A stretch of DNA of 64,000 nt from Chitinophaga barathri. GTDB taxonomy: Bacteria > Bacteroidota > Bacteroidia > Chitinophagales > Chitinophagaceae. Location: assembly GCF_003807585.1 (NCBI RefSeq), contig NZ_RMBX01000012.1, positions 1-64,000 of the forward strand. The letters run 5' to 3'. Both the position numbers and the translations under genes were made by a program. Shown here piece after piece: positions 382 to 64,000 of this stretch. Every line of letters begins with the position of its first letter. The stretch's first letter is position 1. The notes under the pieces were generated by a model. The model made no database searches. It had not been told where the DNA came from and saw only the letters and a program-made list of their open reading frames with translations.

Positions 382-563
382 TGTGAACGCTTTTACCTCG
401 CTGTTAGAACGCTTTTACCCTGCCGTAACGATGCTGTTACATCGTCGTTACAGGGAGATATGATGCCGTTTACAGGCCGGTAAGAGGCCGATAGGACGCC
501 GTCAACAGGCGGTGATGAAGCAAGGGAGAAGCGGCGGACAGGCCGCCGGCGGCGGTACAAAGG
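382..563. repeat. Degenerate 11-bp phased tandem repeat element, copy A
   Basis: Two GAACGCTTTTAC boxes (385-396 and 407-418, exactly 22 bp apart) lead into a run of 11-bp units. The units begin at 422, 433, 444, 455 (this one 10 bp), 465, 476, 487, 498, 509, 520, 531 and 542. The unit is roughly GCCGNTNNNAG; the clearest examples are GCCGTTTACAG, GCCGGTAAGAG and GCCGATAGGAC. A related element with the same leader boxes lies at 52702-52948. Frames across it give only low-complexity peptides, so I treat it as non-coding. Confidence 0.7.
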
Positions 564-28869: not shown

Positions 28870-29122
28870 TCTGATCATCCGTTTCCCCTTGTTAACCTTA
28901 AAACATTCATTGCACCCTTTGTTAACCATTTAAAAACATCCGTTTCTCCGGTTAACCCTTAAGACACATTCATTGTAACCCTATGTTAACCATCAAAACG
29001 ACCGTGTATCCCTTTGTTGACCCTGGAGCGTCCATTTATCCCTTTGTTAACCTGTGAAGCACCGTTTGATCCCTTTTGCCCCCGGGGAGAGAACGGCCAC
29101 ATCCGGACATTTGTTAACCCCC
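28870..29122. repeat. Degenerate ~30-bp tandem repeat array with GTTAACC core
   Basis: The core GTTAACC (one GTTGACC, one degenerate TTTTGCCCC) occurs at 28891, 28921, 28951, 28985, 29016, 29046, about 29078 and 29113, with spacings of 30, 30, 34, 31, 30, 32 and 35 bp. Between cores a second motif close to CATTCATT or CCRTTTAT precedes CCCTTT. It fills most of the 444-bp gap before the peroxiredoxin gene. There is no open frame of note on the plus strand, and spacers are not unique, so it is not a CRISPR array. No other gene is seen in this gap. Confidence 0.75.
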
Positions 29123-30208: not shown

Positions 30209-30326
30209 CTACTGACACCCTACTGACATCCTCCGACCATCCTCCGACCGTGTTCGGTCGTAGCAAGGGTTTGAGGGTGTTTCGCCGGAGGATCGCCGGA
30301 GGATCGTCGGAGGTTCGCCGGAGGAT
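30209..30326. repeat. Inverted pair of 11-bp tandem arrays
   Basis: Left arm: four 11-bp units from 30209 to 30252 (CTACTGACACC, CTACTGACATC, CTCCGACCATC, CTCCGACCGTG). Right arm: four 11-bp units from 30283 to 30326 (CGCCGGAGGAT twice, CGTCGGAGGTT, CGCCGGAGGAT). The right arm is approximately the reverse complement of the left, so a stem of up to about 44 bp with a ~30-nt loop could form. The period equals that of the elements at 382-563 and 52702-52948. No gene lies in the gap between 30073 and 30396. Confidence 0.75.
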
Positions 30327-30341
30327 GGGCGCGGCAAAAGA

Positions 30342-32909: not shown

Positions 32910-34472
32910 TTATTTAAAGTGTTTGAGCAGGATCACTTCCTTTTCGGTCAGGAAGCGCCATTTGCCACGGTTGACATTCTTTTTGGTGAGGCCGGCGTAC
33001 ATCACGCGGTCCAGCTTTTCCACCTTGTATTCCAGGTGTTCGAAGATGCGGCGCACGATACGGTTTTTACCGCTGTGTATCTCGATGCCGACCTGCTTCT
33101 TATCCTTGGTGTCCACATAACCGAGGGCATCCACGAGGGCCAGCCCGTCTTCGAGGGTGACGCCCGAGATGATCTGGTCGAAGTCTGCTTTGGTAAGCGG
33201 CTTGTCCAGCTCTACGTGGTAGATCTTTTTGATGTTGTGTTTCGGATGAGCCAGTTTCTGCGCCAGTTCGCCATCGTTGGTGAGCAGCAGCAGGCCGGAC
33301 GTATTGCGGTCCAGGCGGCCTACGGGGAAGAGCCTTTCTTCATCCGCCGCGTCTTCCACCAGTTCCATTACGGTCTGGCGGCCTTCGGGGTCATCGGTGG
33401 TGGTGATGTAACCTTTGGGTTTGTTCAGCAGAACGTAGATGAGGTTCTTTTGAATGTAAATGCGTTTGTCGTTGAGTTTCACCTCGTCTTTGGCGGTAAC
33501 CTTAAATGCGGGCTCAACGATCTTTTCACCGTTCACCGTTACCTGGCCTTCTTTGATGTAGTCCACGGCTTTACGGCGGCTGCAGATGCCGCAATGGGAG
33601 ATGAACTTGTTCAGCGGCATTTCATTGCTGCTGCTTTCGTCCGTTGCGGTTTCTTTTATGATACGTTTGCGGGTGCTCTTTTCCTTCTTTTTGCCGTGTA
33701 TTTCCGCTTTGCGCTCGCTTTTGCGGGGACGGTCGGAGGACTTATCCTTGTCTTTTTTCGGGCGGTCTTCGCGATCTTCAAACTTTCTTTTCGGACGGTC
33801 TTCGCCGTCACCGAAACTGCGTTTGGGGCGGTCTTCATCGTCACCAAAGCTTTTCCTGGGTTTGAATTCTTTATCGCCGAAGCTGCGTTTAGGTTTATCG
33901 TCCCTGTCACCAAAACTGCGTTTGGGGCGGTCTTCGCCGTCACCAAAGCTTTTCCTAGGTTTGAATTCTTTATCGCCGAAGCTGCGTTTAGGTTTATCGT
34001 CCCTGTCACCGAAACTGCGTTTGGGGCGGTCTTCATCGTCACCAAAGCTTTTTCTCGGTTTGAATTCCTTGTCGCCGAAGCTGCGTTTAGGTTTATCGTC
34101 CCTGTCGCCGAAACTGCGTTTGGGGCGGTCTTCGCCGTCACCAAAGCTTTTCCTGGGTTTGAATTCTTTATCGCCGAAGCTGCGTTTAGGTTTATCGTCC
34201 CTGTCACCGAAACTGCGTTTGGGGCGGTCTTCGCTATCGCCGAAGCTTTTTCTTGGTTTGAATTCTTTATCACCGAAGCTGCGCTTCGGTTTGTCGTCCC
34301 CGCTGCCGGAGCGGTTGTCCCTGAAACTTTTGTAGGATCCTTTTTCATCGGACCTTCCGCGCGGGCTATCCTCTCCGTCCTTTTTTGGGCGGCGTTCTGA
34401 TGAGGGTTTGCCGGTCTTGTTTTCTTTGAAGGGTGTGAACCCTTTCCGGGGGGCGGGTCTGCTTTTTTTCAT
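32910..34472 (-). CDS. RluB/RsuA-type pseudouridine synthase with long repeat-rich N-terminus
   Basis: 520 residues, about twice the family core. Residues 1-60 are basic and disordered. Residues 61-236 are sixteen tandem 11-residue units of the type [11 protein letters not shown] / [11 protein letters not shown] / [11 protein letters not shown], repeating as 33-residue triplets. After a Lys-rich linker come an S4 RNA-binding domain (about 283-330, [18 protein letters not shown]) and the synthase domain with the catalytic Asp in [16 protein letters not shown]. RluB-type enzymes make pseudouridine in 23S rRNA (U2605 in E. coli). The highly charged tail is probably disordered and RNA-binding. 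It lies 47 bp behind rlmN on the same strand, so the two probably form an RNA-modification operon. Confidence 0.92.
33765..34292 (-). repeat. In-gene tandem repeats, 33-bp units in 99-bp periods
   Basis: DNA encoding residues 61-236 of the RluB-type protein. Sixteen 33-bp units occur, organised as 99-bp higher-order copies that are nearly identical at the nucleotide level (for example recurring GAAGCTGCGTTTAGG). The near identity suggests recent expansion by slippage or recombination, so copy number probably varies between strains. Confidence 0.9.
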
Positions 34473-38788: not shown

Positions 38789-41593
38789 ATGTGCGCAAAA
38801 GTAAAATCCAAGGAAGTGACCGTTGAACGTGAACCAGTTAGCTCACCTGACCATATCTTCATCAAAGGTGCCAGGGTGCATAATCTCAAGAATGTCAGCG
38901 TATCCATTCCCAGAAATAAACTCGTAGTGGTGACCGGTGTGAGCGGCTCGGGCAAATCCAGCCTCACCATGGACACCCTGTATGCCGAAGGCCAGCGCCG
39001 CTACGCGGAAAGCCTCAGCTCCTACGCCCGCCAGTTCCTCATGAGGATGAACAAGCCGGACGTGGATTACATCAAGGGCATCTGCCCGGCCATCGCCATC
39101 GAACAGAAGGTGATCACCCGTACCCCCCGCTCCACCGTGGGCTCCATGACCGAACTGTACGACTACCTGCGCCTGCTTTTTGCCCGCGCCGGCAGAACGT
39201 ATTCCCCCGTTTCGGGCCAGCTGGTCAAAAAACACGAAGTGGCGGACGTGGTGGACTTTATCAGCCGCCTCCCCCATGGCAGCAAAGTGCAGATACTGGT
39301 GCCTTTCCGCCAGCACGCGAACCGTAAAGCGCCGGAAGAACTGAATATCCTGATGCAGAAAGGGTTTTCCCGCCTGTATACGGACGGCGGCCTGGTGCGC
39401 ATCGAAGAGCTGCTGGAGGAAAAATCGCCCAAAATACCCGCTTCCGCCTATGTGCTGATAGACCGCATCGTGGTGAAAGACTTTGAGGAAGATGATAAAC
39501 ACCGGATCGCGGACTCCATCCAGACCGCCTTTTACGAAAGCGAAGGAGATTGTATCCTGGAAGTGGACGGCAAGCTCGCCCAGACCTTCTCCAACCGCTT
39601 CGAGCTGGACGGCATCCAGTTTGAAGAGCCTGTACCGAACCTTTTTTCCTTCAACAATCCTTACGGCGCCTGCCCCACCTGTGAAGGTTTTGGCCAGGTG
39701 CTGGGCATAGACGCGGACCTGGTGATCCCGGACAAACGCCTGAGCGTGTTCGAAGGCGCCGTGGCCCCCTGGCGGGGCGAAAAGATGGGTGAATACAAGG
39801 AAGCCCTGGTGAAAGCCGCCCGGAAGTTCAATTTCCCCATCCACAAACCCGTCTCCGAGCTGACGGATGAGCAGGTAAAGCTGCTCTGGACGGGCAACGA
39901 GCACTTTTACGGCCTGAACGAATTCTTCAAAATGGTGGAGCAGAACCTGTACAAGGTGCAATACCGCGTATTGCAGGCCCGCTACCGCGGCCGCACTGTA
40001 TGCCCCACCTGCAACGGCGCCCGCCTGCGTAAAGAGGCCCTTTATGTAAAAGTGGGGGAGGCCAGCATTGCGGACCTCGTGGAAATGCCCGTGGAGAAAC
40101 TGAAAGTATGGTTTGACGGCCTGGAACTGAACGAATACCAGCAACAGGTGTCCAAACGGATCCTGATAGAAGTGCACCACCGCGTAAAGACCCTGCTGGA
40201 CGTAGGTCTTGGCTACCTTACCCTGAACCGTGTGGCGAACACGCTCAGCGGCGGGGAAAGCCAGCGTATCCAGCTCACCCGCACCCTTGGCAGCAACCTG
40301 ACCAATTCCCTGTATATCCTGGACGAGCCGAGCATCGGCCTGCACGCCCGCGATACCCACCGCCTCATCCGCGTATTGCACGAGCTCCGCGACCTGGGGA
40401 ACACCGTGGTGGTAGTGGAGCACGACGAGCAGCTGATGGAACAGGCGGATTATATCATAGACATGGGGCCGCTGGCCAGCCACCTGGGCGGCGAAGTGAT
40501 CTTTGAAGGTACTTACCCCGAGATATTAAAAGACGGCAAAAGCCTCACCGGCAAATACCTCAGCGGCCACCTCCGCATAGAGCCGCCGGCGCACCTCCGC
40601 AAATGGAAACGCTCCATCACGCTGGAAGGCTGCCGCCAGCACAACCTGAAAAATATTGACGTGGAATTCCCGCTGGGCGTGCTTTGTGTAGTGACCGGCG
40701 TGTCCGGCTCAGGCAAGACCACCCTCGTGAAACAGATACTCTATCCCGCGCTGATGAAGCTGAAAGGGGAGTTTACGGACCGTGTGGGCACGCATCGGCT
40801 CATGAAAGGTGATATGGACCACATCACCCAGATCGAGATGATCGACCAGAACCCGATCGGCAAAAGCTCCCGTTCCAACCCGGTGACCTACATCAAAGCC
40901 TACGACGAGATCCGCGACCTGTTCTCCAAACAACCGCTGTCAAAAATGCGCGGCTTCCAGCCCAAACATTTTTCGTTCAACGTAGACGGCGGGCGCTGCG
41001 ATACCTGCAAAGGCGAAGGCGAAGTGATCGTGGAAATGCAGTTCCTCGCGGACGTGCACCTCACCTGCGAGACCTGCGGCGGCAAACGTTTTAAAGACGA
41101 AGTGCTGGAGGTGCAGTATAAGGGCAAAAGCATTTACGACATCCTGGAAATGGGTGTGGACGAGGCCATCGAGTTTTTCAAAGAAGAAAAAGATGTGGCA
41201 GGAAAGATCCGCCCGCTCAGCGATGTGGGCCTGGGTTATGTGAAGCTGGGCCAAAGCTCTGATACGCTTTCCGGTGGCGAGGCGCAGCGTGTGAAGCTCG
41301 CGAGTTTCCTCGGCAAAGGCAAAGCGCAGGGGCATATCCTTTTTATCTTCGATGAGCCCACTACCGGGCTTCACTTCCACGATATCCGCAAACTGCTGGC
41401 GAGTTTCAACGCCCTGATAGAACAGGGCCACAGCGTGCTGGTGATAGAGCACAACCTGGACGTGATCCGCAGTGCGGACTGGGCGATAGACCTGGGGCCG
41501 GAAGGCGGAGAAGGTGGCGGGAAACTGCTGTACGCCGGTGTGCCGGAGGGGTTGAAAAAAGTGAAGGAAAGTTATACCGGCAAGTTCCTCTGA
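38789..41593 (+). CDS. uvrA: Excinuclease ABC subunit A
   Basis: 934 residues, full-length UvrA. It is the damage-sensing ATPase of nucleotide excision repair. Two ABC modules are visible: Walker A GVSGSGKSSL and GVSGSGKTTL, signatures NTLSGGESQRI and DTLSGGEAQRV, and Walker B regions YILDEPSIGLH and FIFDEPTTGLH. Zinc-binding cysteines occur in CPTCNGARLR and CDTCKGEGE with CETCGGKRF. The protein is cytoplasmic and acts with UvrB. A second, distinct uvrA begins at 62303, so the genome encodes at least two UvrA proteins. A -7 box 7 bp upstream suggests expression independent of neighbours. Confidence 0.96.
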   Translation: MCAKVKSKEVTVEREPVSSPDHIFIKGARVHNLKNVSVSIPRNKLVVVTGVSGSGKSSLTMDTLYAEGQRRYAESLSSYARQFLMRMNKPDVDYIKGICPAIAIEQKVITRTPRSTVGSMTELYDYLRLLFARAGRTYSPVSGQLVKKHEVADVVDFISRLPHGSKVQILVPFRQHANRKAPEELNILMQKGFSRLYTDGGLVRIEELLEEKSPKIPASAYVLIDRIVVKDFEEDDKHRIADSIQTAFYESEGDCILEVDGKLAQTFSNRFELDGIQFEEPVPNLFSFNNPYGACPTCEGFGQVLGIDADLVIPDKRLSVFEGAVAPWRGEKMGEYKEALVKAARKFNFPIHKPVSELTDEQVKLLWTGNEHFYGLNEFFKMVEQNLYKVQYRVLQARYRGRTVCPTCNGARLRKEALYVKVGEASIADLVEMPVEKLKVWFDGLELNEYQQQVSKRILIEVHHRVKTLLDVGLGYLTLNRVANTLSGGESQRIQLTRTLGSNLTNSLYILDEPSIGLHARDTHRLIRVLHELRDLGNTVVVVEHDEQLMEQADYIIDMGPLASHLGGEVIFEGTYPEILKDGKSLTGKYLSGHLRIEPPAHLRKWKRSITLEGCRQHNLKNIDVEFPLGVLCVVTGVSGSGKTTLVKQILYPALMKLKGEFTDRVGTHRLMKGDMDHITQIEMIDQNPIGKSSRSNPVTYIKAYDEIRDLFSKQPLSKMRGFQPKHFSFNVDGGRCDTCKGEGEVIVEMQFLADVHLTCETCGGKRFKDEVLEVQYKGKSIYDILEMGVDEAIEFFKEEKDVAGKIRPLSDVGLGYVKLGQSSDTLSGGEAQRVKLASFLGKGKAQGHILFIFDEPTTGLHFHDIRKLLASFNALIEQGHSVLVIEHNLDVIRSADWAIDLGPEGGEGGGKLLYAGVPEGLKKVKESYTGKFL

Positions 41594-52701: not shown

Positions 52702-52948
52702 GAACGCTTTATCTGTTTTTCAACGCTGTGAGAACGCTTTTACTGCGGTATTACTAAGCCGTAAAAGGGAGAAGCGATGCCGGTTACACGCCGGTATAAG
52801 GCCAGTATGAGGCCGGTTAGAAGAAGGTTAGCAGCAAAAGACCGGGTAGAATGCCTCTGCCGATCTAAAGTGATGATATATTCACCTAAAGCCATGTCGA
52901 ACGATAGAGCAAGGAAAGAGCAAGGATAGAGCAAGGGAAGAGCAAGGA
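52702..52948. repeat. Degenerate 11-bp phased tandem repeat element, copy B
   Basis: GAACGCTTTATC (52702) and GAACGCTTTTAC (52732) lead into 11-bp units from 52779: GCCGGTTACAC, GCCGGTATAAG, GCCAGTATGAG, GCCGGTTAGAA, GAAGGTTAGCA. After a less regular middle, four exact-period units of WAGAGCAAGGR fill 52905-52948. The leader boxes and GCCGGTA-type units match copy A at 382-563, so both belong to one dispersed family. The 362-bp gap between aspS and the RES toxin holds no gene I can support. Confidence 0.72.
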
Positions 52949-52977
52949 GAAGAAGTGGTAAAATAGTACCAGGAAAC

Positions 52978-62302: not shown

Positions 62303-64000
62303 ATGGCAAAACAAAGCAAAAAAACTACAATACAACCCGCCCCGGCAGCTCAACAGGAGGAAATGATCGAAGTGTACGGAGCCCGGGAGCATAATCTTAA
62401 AAACGTGGATATCCGCATTCCGAAGAACAGCCTGGTGGTGATCACCGGCATCAGCGGCAGCGGCAAATCTTCCCTCGCATTCGACACCATCTATGCCGAA
62501 GGGCAGCGCAGGTACATGGAGAGTTTCTCCGCCTACGCCCGCCAGTTCATCGGCGATATGGAAAGACCGGATGTAGATAAGATCATGGGCCTTTCGCCCG
62601 TTATCTCCATTGAGCAGAAGACCACGAACAAGAACCCCCGTTCCACCGTCGGCACCATCACCGAGATATACGACTTTCTCCGTCTCCTTTACGCACGCGT
62701 GGGTGAAGCCTATTCCTACAACACGGGTAAACGTATGGCGCGTTTTTCCGAAGAGGAGATCATGGCCCACATCTTCGCCAATTTCCCTAAAAAGAAACTG
62801 GTAGTACTCGCTCCCCTCGTGCGCGGCCGCAAAGGCCACTATCGCGAACTGTTTGAGCAGGTACGCAAGCAGGGTTACCTGAAAGTGCGGGTGGATGGTG
62901 AAGTGCTGGACCTGAAGGAACGTATGCAGGTGGACCGTTACAAGATCCATGACATCGAGCTGGTGATAGACCGTGTGCAGGTGCAGGACGATGCACGCAC
63001 CCGCATCAGCCAGAGCGTGCAGAAAGCCCTGCAGATGGGCAAAGGCCTGATGTTTATCATGGAGCACGACAGCAACAAGGTGAAACAATACAGCCGCCAG
63101 CTGATGTGCGAGGACACGGGTATTTCCTACGAAGAACCTTCTCCCAATACCTTTTCCTTCAATTCCCCTTATGGCGCCTGCCCTCGCTGCAAAGGCCTGG
63201 GCACCATTTACCAGATCGATATGGACGAGGTATTGCCGGACCGCAGCAAATCCATCAGCGACGGCGGACTGGTGCCGCTCGGCGAAGCCAGGGATACTTT
63301 TACTTTCAAACAGATACAGCAGCTCTCCAAAAAGTATAAATTTTCCCTCACCGCCCCCATCGAAAAGATACCGGAAAACGCCATGAACGTGCTCCTGTTC
63401 GGCGATGAAAACGGTAAGCTGGAAGTAGATATGGGCTTTGAAGAAAACGGCGCCGAAACCTACGCCACGGAATACGAAGGCGTGGTGAACATGGTGCGCC
63501 GTTATTTCAACGACACCTCGTCCGACGCGGTGCGCAACTGGGCGGAAGGGTTTATGAAACTCTCCACCTGCCCGGAATGCAATGGCGCCCGCCTCAAAAA
63601 AGAAAGCCTGATGTTCAAGGTAGACGGGCAGAACATTTCCGAGCTGGGCGAAATGAACCTCAGCAAGCTGGCCGTATGGTTTGCGGACATAGAGAAACGG
63701 TTAGACAAGAAGCAGAACGTGATTGCCAAAGACGTGCTGAAAGAGATCCGCGAGCGCCTCGGCTTCCTGCTGGACGTGGGGCTCACCTATCTCACGCTGA
63801 ACCGCGCCACGCGCACGCTCAGCGGCGGGGAAAGCCAGCGTATCCGTCTTGCCACGCAGATCGGTTCCCAGCTGATGGGCATCACTTACATTCTTGACGA
63901 GCCCAGCATCGGCCTGCACCAGCGGGACAATATGCGGCTCATAGACGCGCTCCGCAACCTGAAAACCATGGGCAACACCGTGATAGTGGTGGAGCACGAT
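62303..64000 (+). CDS. uvrA: Excinuclease ABC subunit A, second copy, 5' part
   Basis: 566 codons are visible; the gene runs off the window end without a stop. Walker A is GISGSGKSSLAF (about 49-60), the first zinc-finger region is CPRCKGLG and CPECNGARLKKESL, and the first ABC signature RTLSGGESQRIRLATQIG and Walker B YILDEPSIGLH are intact. It has an N-terminal extension of about 20 residues (Lys/Gln/Pro-rich) not present in the copy at 38789, and differs from it throughout, so this is an old paralogue, not a recent duplicate. The ATG at 62303 follows a near -7 box (TACTTTGA). Confidence 0.93.
   Translation, partial: MAKQSKKTTIQPAPAAQQEEMIEVYGAREHNLKNVDIRIPKNSLVVITGISGSGKSSLAFDTIYAEGQRRYMESFSAYARQFIGDMERPDVDKIMGLSPVISIEQKTTNKNPRSTVGTITEIYDFLRLLYARVGEAYSYNTGKRMARFSEEEIMAHIFANFPKKKLVVLAPLVRGRKGHYRELFEQVRKQGYLKVRVDGEVLDLKERMQVDRYKIHDIELVIDRVQVQDDARTRISQSVQKALQMGKGLMFIMEHDSNKVKQYSRQLMCEDTGISYEEPSPNTFSFNSPYGACPRCKGLGTIYQIDMDEVLPDRSKSISDGGLVPLGEARDTFTFKQIQQLSKKYKFSLTAPIEKIPENAMNVLLFGDENGKLEVDMGFEENGAETYATEYEGVVNMVRRYFNDTSSDAVRNWAEGFMKLSTCPECNGARLKKESLMFKVDGQNISELGEMNLSKLAVWFADIEKRLDKKQNVIAKDVLKEIRERLGFLLDVGLTYLTLNRATRTLSGGESQRIRLATQIGSQLMGITYILDEPSIGLHQRDNMRLIDALRNLKTMGNTVIVVEHD

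Follow-up and report, generated by a model that had tools for sequence, protein, structure and literature searches.

The question raised by this locus is how a tandem array may hold a constant pitch while the words that compose it drift, and what kind of element such an array represents. The window, i.e., the whole stretch of 64,000 nucleotides analysed here, is the start of contig C3 in a genome of 6.86 Mb and 28 contigs. Its forward strand carries an array of 15 units of 11 bp at 385-549, all in one register, in which the early units resemble GAACGCTTTTA or CCTCGCTGTTA and the later ones GAGGCCGGTTA. Two leader boxes, both reading GAACGCTTTTAC, are found on the same strand, the one at 385-396 corresponding to unit 1 plus one base, and the one at 407-418 to unit 3. 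They are separated by exactly 22 bp, i.e., the two periods claimed in the preliminary description of this DNA.

That description had also claimed that consecutive units keep an 11-bp register in spite of their drift, and had taken shuffled sequence as the standard against which the periodicity should be judged. The mean identity of 382-563 at lags 11, 22, and 33 is 0.515, vs. 0.256 (sd 0.020) in 2000 dinucleotide shuffles (z 13.1), and this score was matched by none of the 2000 shuffles, nor by any of 1000 at any period from 5 to 24, which bears out the claim on both counts. Under a looser delimitation, the array extends from 373 to 595. The array at 385-549 was left unreported by Tandem Repeats Finder, and a scan of the window at periods 4-40 placed period 11 at 387, 30203, 52716, and 52875, apart from which the matches at periods not divisible by 3 were period 22 at 379 and one weak period 31 at 28933.

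Families of arrays sharing one pitch

Further copies of the array, with the same register and leader, had been named as the support to look for in the genome, and they exist. Exact matches to the box number 31 in the 6.86 Mb, vs. three for the pattern read backwards, and many intergenic copies keep both the register and the boxes while their words drift at a constant period. These box-bearing phased arrays have two main layouts, of which the first, that of the array at 385-549, consists of GAACGCTTTTA-like followed by GAGGCCGGTTA-like units (seven copies were compared), and the second alternates GAACGCTTTTA and CCCTGCTTTAT before passing to CATTACTGTAT-like units. Another copy of the same family is found in the window at 52703-52850, on the forward strand, with a box at 52732-52743 and a diverged box at 52702-52713, located between a GAD-domain class II aminoacyl-tRNA synthetase gene, which was read as aspS, and a convergent RES-domain gene.

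The same pitch is also present in arrays made of other words. At 30209-30329 of the forward strand, an array designated family C has ATCCTCCGACC 11-mers in its left half and GCCGGAGGATC in its right half, inverted about the centre, and three other copies of it were found in an 864-kb set composed of the window and forty 20-kb stretches of this genome, about nine of which had been chosen for their boxes. Family E is represented at 52861-52973, also on the forward strand, by a frame TGATGATATATTC...GGTAAAATAGTACC around the 11-mers AGAGCAAGGAT. Both families C and E occur as sharply bounded paralogous copies of approximately 100-120 bp, nearly ungapped, at unrelated loci. Inverted halves are found only in family C and in some arrays of other species, and the family of the array at 385-549 is made up of direct 11-mers rather than of the palindromic units of 20-40 bp that characterise REP/BIME.

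When the regions of the 864-kb set are sorted by period, 35 belong to period 11 and 13 to period 22, followed by period 5 (three), period 8 (two), and periods 10 and 17 (one each), and 11 (with 22) stands almost alone once the periods divisible by 3 are set aside. No region of period 7 was found in these 864 kb by the three-lag score, and the arrays are not heptamer sets in this sense. In twenty 20-kb stretches of contig C11 (400 kb) that were not chosen for boxes, ten regions had period 11, three period 22, two period 5, and one period 17, with none at fourteen other periods tested, a density that would extrapolate to some 170 arrays per genome. Intergenic tandem arrays are present in many sets in this genome, and they are short, non-coding, multi-copy, and intergenic, as MITEs are.

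An all-versus-all comparison of the 864 kb yielded seven clusters, with 28 members in total, in every one of which the best period between 7 and 29 is 11 or 22. The sequences of these clusters are mostly different, although a relationship among clusters AB, G, and H is possible. The two largest repeat clusters, of 13 and 8 members, have no period 11. It is customary to describe a bacterial tandem repeat by its word, whereas here several words share one pitch within one genome.

Two side observations concern dispersed repeats of another kind. Positions 1-292 of the window belong to an 8-copy repeat with GGAGATTGCTTCGTCG, not periodic at 11, and a 13-copy repeat of 76-399 bp (L064:5527-5669 and 12 others) has no 11-bp period and almost no register changes.

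The constancy of period rather than of word had been held to be unusual for slippage repeats, a view that proved half right. In the comparison of six array families (family F was left out), with register changes counted between solid blocks, 6 of the 11 changes between paralogous arrays were multiples of 11, vs. 0 of 41 in two non-periodic families, so that whole-unit slippage is part of the story. Within families C and E, on the other hand, no net register change was found in six pairs each. This scarcity of indels does not by itself prove that the pitch is selected, given that one of the non-periodic control families is also nearly indel-free, with 2 register changes in 63 pairs. Among the arrays observed, divergence is lowest in two that consist of identical GGTGTAGACCC runs, of 12 units at L062:12801-12932 and 6 units at L156:10814-10879, and these point to a turnover that proceeds unit by unit.

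Family E provides the clearest view of how frame and units are related. The 39 distinct copies in this genome have a constant frame of approximately 100 bp, TGATGnTATATTC-like on the left and GGTAAAATAGTACC-like on the right, and between these ends mostly three to five exchangeable 11-mers, each with a core ASGA and seven variable positions. The likeness of the variable parts is 0.64 between the units of one element, vs. 0.52 between units of the same rank in different elements. A model of family E built from 13 copies had 49 matches in this genome, where 60 of 1333 candidates were scored with model R1, and it matched 13 of the 59 other genomes of the genus, mainly G007 (53), G014 (33), G052 (13), and G020 (12), some of the matches elsewhere being arrays of another layout with similar units. 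Among the loci that were printed, those of G011, G020, and G052 have E-type ends, and those of G007, G012, G014, G034, and G055 have other layouts, several with inverted halves.

In other species, the ends of family E form inverted repeats, TGATAYTATWTTAACM, placed 99-113 bp apart (L353, L368, L369, and L370; the species are G011, G020, G052, G026, and G125). They have no mismatch in L369, at 99 bp, and one each in L353 and L368, and they are degenerate in the genome studied here; the G026 element and L369 have no evident 11-mers. The end motif was found in 49 of 79 genomes of the genus, with 99 occurrences, vs. 5 for the control. Of the 30 occurrences inspected, each with 1.5 kb on either side, six can be paired with a second end 99-113 bp away that has no more than four mismatches, close partners being present at no other distance, and many of the remainder look like ordinary gene or tRNA flanks. 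Near these 30 of the 99 matches, where partner ends alone were searched for, no transposase gene bounded by such ends came to notice.

Position between genes and an insertion sequence in the arrays

Genes were called with a codon-usage caller made for this analysis rather than with a published one, and none of the 31 array regions is inside a called gene. Among the intergenic gaps of at least 100 bp, arrays are present in 15 of 42 convergent gaps, 10 of 184 tandem gaps, and 1 of 75 divergent gaps, i.e., 15 of 42 vs. 11 of 259 for convergent against all others (Fisher p 3e-8). In the window and the stretches that were not chosen for boxes, the proportions are 9 of 28 and 5 of 200 (p 2e-6). For family E, 36 of the 39 copies could be placed, 18 in convergent, 12 in tandem, and 6 in divergent gaps, and these six indicate that family E avoids the promoter side of genes less strictly than would be gathered from the array count.

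At 30 loci, i.e., this genome and 29 of its 59 relatives in the genus, the 600 bp that follow the aspS homologue were compared, and a period-11 score of at least 0.5 was found in this genome and in G014, which has other units. Orthologous conservation of the array downstream of aspS was rejected on this basis, as 28 of the 29 relatives examined are without it.

An insertion sequence is also associated with the arrays. This element has an rve integrase domain and the ends TGTCTCCTCC and GGACAAGACA, and its designation as IS3-type rests on that domain and on its layout, with a 3-bp target duplication being assumed. Twelve of its ends were found, 11 of which adjoin arrays or a box when judged by eye, the exceptional cases being L101, which adjoins neither, and L097, which is accompanied by a single box. 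All seven junctions that could be read against the box are in one phase, at unit position 3-4 if the 3-bp duplication is assumed. All twelve ends are within 1 kb of a contig end, on contigs C2, C3, C7, C10, C11, C13, C17, C23, C24, and C25 of this genome (G000), and for this insertion sequence the arrays are landing sites locked to one phase.

A probable dispersed element with a drifting body, and its alternatives

The array at 385-549 is probably one copy of a class of dispersed intergenic elements, similar to MITEs and BIMEs, of approximately 100-200 bp, with a degenerate 11-bp minisatellite body, which are copied to new sites and turn over unit by unit. We infer that whole elements would reach further intergenic sites by being copied, and that they probably do so as non-autonomous mobile elements, by analogy with the ends of family E. 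The family of the array at 385-549 has no visible terminal inverted repeats (by eye, in the seven copies compared), and its mobility would thus be an analogy drawn from family E. The body may then evolve by point mutation, with whole 11-bp units being gained, lost, and homogenised, as a result of which the words would drift and the pitch would stay. The elements would survive mainly where they do little harm, i.e., at the 3' ends of genes and between convergent genes, where selection against the disturbance of promoters would leave them, and they would act as landing pads for the IS3-type element.

Similar elements are known from other bacteria. REP/BIME sequences are mosaics of short elements that occupy the 3' flanks of genes and the gaps of convergent gene pairs, where they are targets of insertion sequences, and REPs are palindromes of 20-40 bp linked to the RAYT transposase. 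The arrays resemble them in their location at gene 3' ends and in convergent gaps, and as targets of an insertion sequence, and differ from them in being made up mostly of direct 11-bp units.

The nearest described case that was found is BrickBuilt, a minisatellite of 23-nt units inside a MITE of Porphyromonas gingivalis, with 19 copies, in the excerpt of PMC4596501 on which we draw. As there described, BrickBuilt has intergenic direct tandem repeats, a constant "leader" and "tail", and small inverted-repeat ends, as in family E, and whole repeat units are gained and lost, with no transposase inside the element (PMC4596501). It differs in the length of the unit and in being a single family, whereas here the unit has 11 bp and there are several families, and the words change within one constant frame (PMC4596501). 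In addition, the same excerpt states that no copy of BrickBuilt is bisected by a full-length element, in contrast to the arrays studied here, which have an insertion sequence inside them (PMC4596501).

After BrickBuilt, the next nearest case is that of the intergenic heptamer repeats, i.e., the TAACTGA repeats of Beggiatoaceae, Cyanobacteria, and some Bacteroidetes (PMC4679880, in part) and the G-rich heptamers of Xanthomonas and Nostoc (PMC4692102, in part). The portions of these reports used here describe many intergenic sets of short tandem units, with heptamer words mixed in some genomes, indels of whole 7-nt units, and no known function, all of which is similar to the present case (PMC4679880, PMC4692102). 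The differences are the 7-nt unit, here 11 bp, and the strong degeneracy and whole-element families of the arrays (PMC4679880, PMC4692102). An 11-bp class was not found for this group in the open-licence literature as represented by titles and the openings of abstracts, which is weak evidence. The arrays look like a new variety among the known bacterial repeat elements, rather than a proven site of protein binding or bending.

The pitch itself varies among relatives. The exact box followed by the next unit was found in 2 of 60 genomes of the genus (this one and G019), and in 1 of 60 in a draw from the family (this one), and period-11 arrays with other words occur in G007, G014, G019, G052, and others. 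In 37 stretches from the genus, six regions had period 11 and four had period 7, and in 16 stretches of approximately 20 kb from sister genera, there were 16 regions of period 7 vs. one of period 11, with degenerate 7-bp arrays in 5 of the 16. Some sister genera thus have a pitch other than that of this genome, which opens the cause of the over-representation of heptamers, and now of 11-mers, to comparative tests. A scan for the box in a collection of named, mostly unrelated genomes, which may leave out this genome and its near relatives, retrieved 86 stretches vs. approximately 60 expected by our own estimate, and 80 of these 86 had no excess of period 11 (five loci, vs. eight at period 7 and six at period 5). 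As a separate observation, the 7-bp array loci of the sister genera (L268, L272, L278, L279, and L280) are possibly the counterpart of the 11-bp arrays.

The preliminary description had read the 11-bp period as one helical turn, suited to a nucleoid or regulatory protein or to sequence-directed bending, and this reading did not hold up well. A binding protein may read the pitch, and a nucleoid protein, a gyrase-like wrapper, a transposase, or a filament-forming regulator that binds one site per turn would leave the pitch selected and the word free, which would account for one pitch across different words, for the inverted halves that are in register in some families (by eye), and for the ASGA core that family E keeps while its flanks change. 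Gyrase-binding BIMEs have a location that resembles that of the arrays in convergent gaps. Words containing a TA step are mildly in excess (18 of 22, vs. a permuted mean of 14.3, sd 1.9), which leans towards this reading. The same test, however, found the first-harmonic alternation of A/T and G/C to be no greater than in permuted words (p 0.70, in 22 words chosen by eye), which left intrinsic bending through such alternation unsupported. The similar arrays in 5 of the 16 sampled sister-genus stretches have a pitch of 7 bp, which is not a helical turn, and no candidate protein was found, the product of the gene at 813-1604 being without a family, a PDB sequence, or a confident fold match. Selection of the pitch by helically phased binding consequently appears unlikely to us. 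A bolder proposal, in our view quite unlikely, is that the pitch rather than the sequence would be inherited and recognised, i.e., that a protein or copying machine would work on any word with a step of 11 bp, or of 7 bp in certain sister genera, with constant frames such as that of family E carrying exchangeable 11-mers. If true, such a pitch-reading machine would define a sequence-free, spacing-coded class of bacterial repeats.

The arrays could also be a mutational product and nothing else, functionless and immobile, in which slippage or copying specific to the lineage makes units of 11 bp (in some sister genera, of 7 bp). This origin appears decidedly improbable, given that the copies of families C and E are whole elements dispersed with a common frame, not independent local expansions, and that no slippage process with a preference for 11 bp is known to us, even though the exact GGTGTAGACCC runs with differing numbers of units, the 6 of 11 register changes that are multiples of 11, and the differing pitch of relatives all agree with it. 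A link between the excess of heptamers and polymerase slippage, which counts in its favour, is cited as a hypothesis in the available text of PMC4692102. Rho-utilisation sites, i.e., C-rich RNA with cytosines every 11-13 nt at gene ends, acting from both sides between convergent genes, are very improbable as an explanation. The 11-bp spacing does fit the rule of RhoTermPredict (78 nt, C>G, cytosines every 11-13 nt), as given in the excerpt of PMC6407284 used here. The arrays are located at gene 3' ends, and family E is nearer to the stop codon of the gene that reads it as C-rich (median 35 bp, n=25) than to that on the other side (77 bp, n=23). Nevertheless, the prediction that C should exceed G on the RNA strand of the entering gene failed: the excess is equally strong on non-entered (p 0.001) and entered strands (p 0.004), the length-matched difference between them has a p of 0.18, and a first skew test was positive on 28 of 45 entered sides vs. 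104 of 190 control flanks, with array halves roughly delimited. Nor does the orientation of family E in tandem gaps show a preference (7 vs. 5). Finally, a structured RNA or hairpin element, which would suit the hairpin of family C, where 6 of 31 pairs carry changes at both positions in one or more of four sequences, is scarcely credible for the class as a whole. Family E yields no consensus structure, no Rfam match was found in the window, and 19 box-bearing arrays folded on both strands had z of -2 or less in 4 of 38 cases and +2 or more in 3 of 38 (40 shuffles each), so RNA structure was rejected as a general explanation.

The gene at 813-1604 and other features of the window

The gene at 813-1604, which follows the array, has four copies, i.e., itself and three at 62-66% identity, and for three of the four (on C3, C21, and C28, and not on C22) the first box of an array of the same family precedes the gene by 348-555 bp. 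This is unlike what purely neutral spread would predict, and the association may reflect either co-duplication or regulation. The protein has no match in Pfam, PHROG, NCBIfam, or the sequences of the PDB, and the single-sequence fold of its N-terminal 115 residues (pLDDT 78) has no confident match, the best E being 0.35, in view of which it was set aside as a candidate for binding the arrays. Upstream of the gene, at 692-732, CCAAAA-type repeats are found approximately 10 bp apart, and this upstream region and the gene recur at L068:7978-8424 and L070:6358-6783, in each case with an 11-bp array some hundreds of bp upstream.

Other repeats were also observed in the window. Two pairs of similar segments are formed by 38867-39188 with 62378-62699, and by 40192-40425 with 63766-63999. 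A tandem repeat of 33/99 bp is located at 33798-34300, with 92% matches at period 99, and it overlaps an ORF of 520 amino acids on the minus strand, at 32910-34472.
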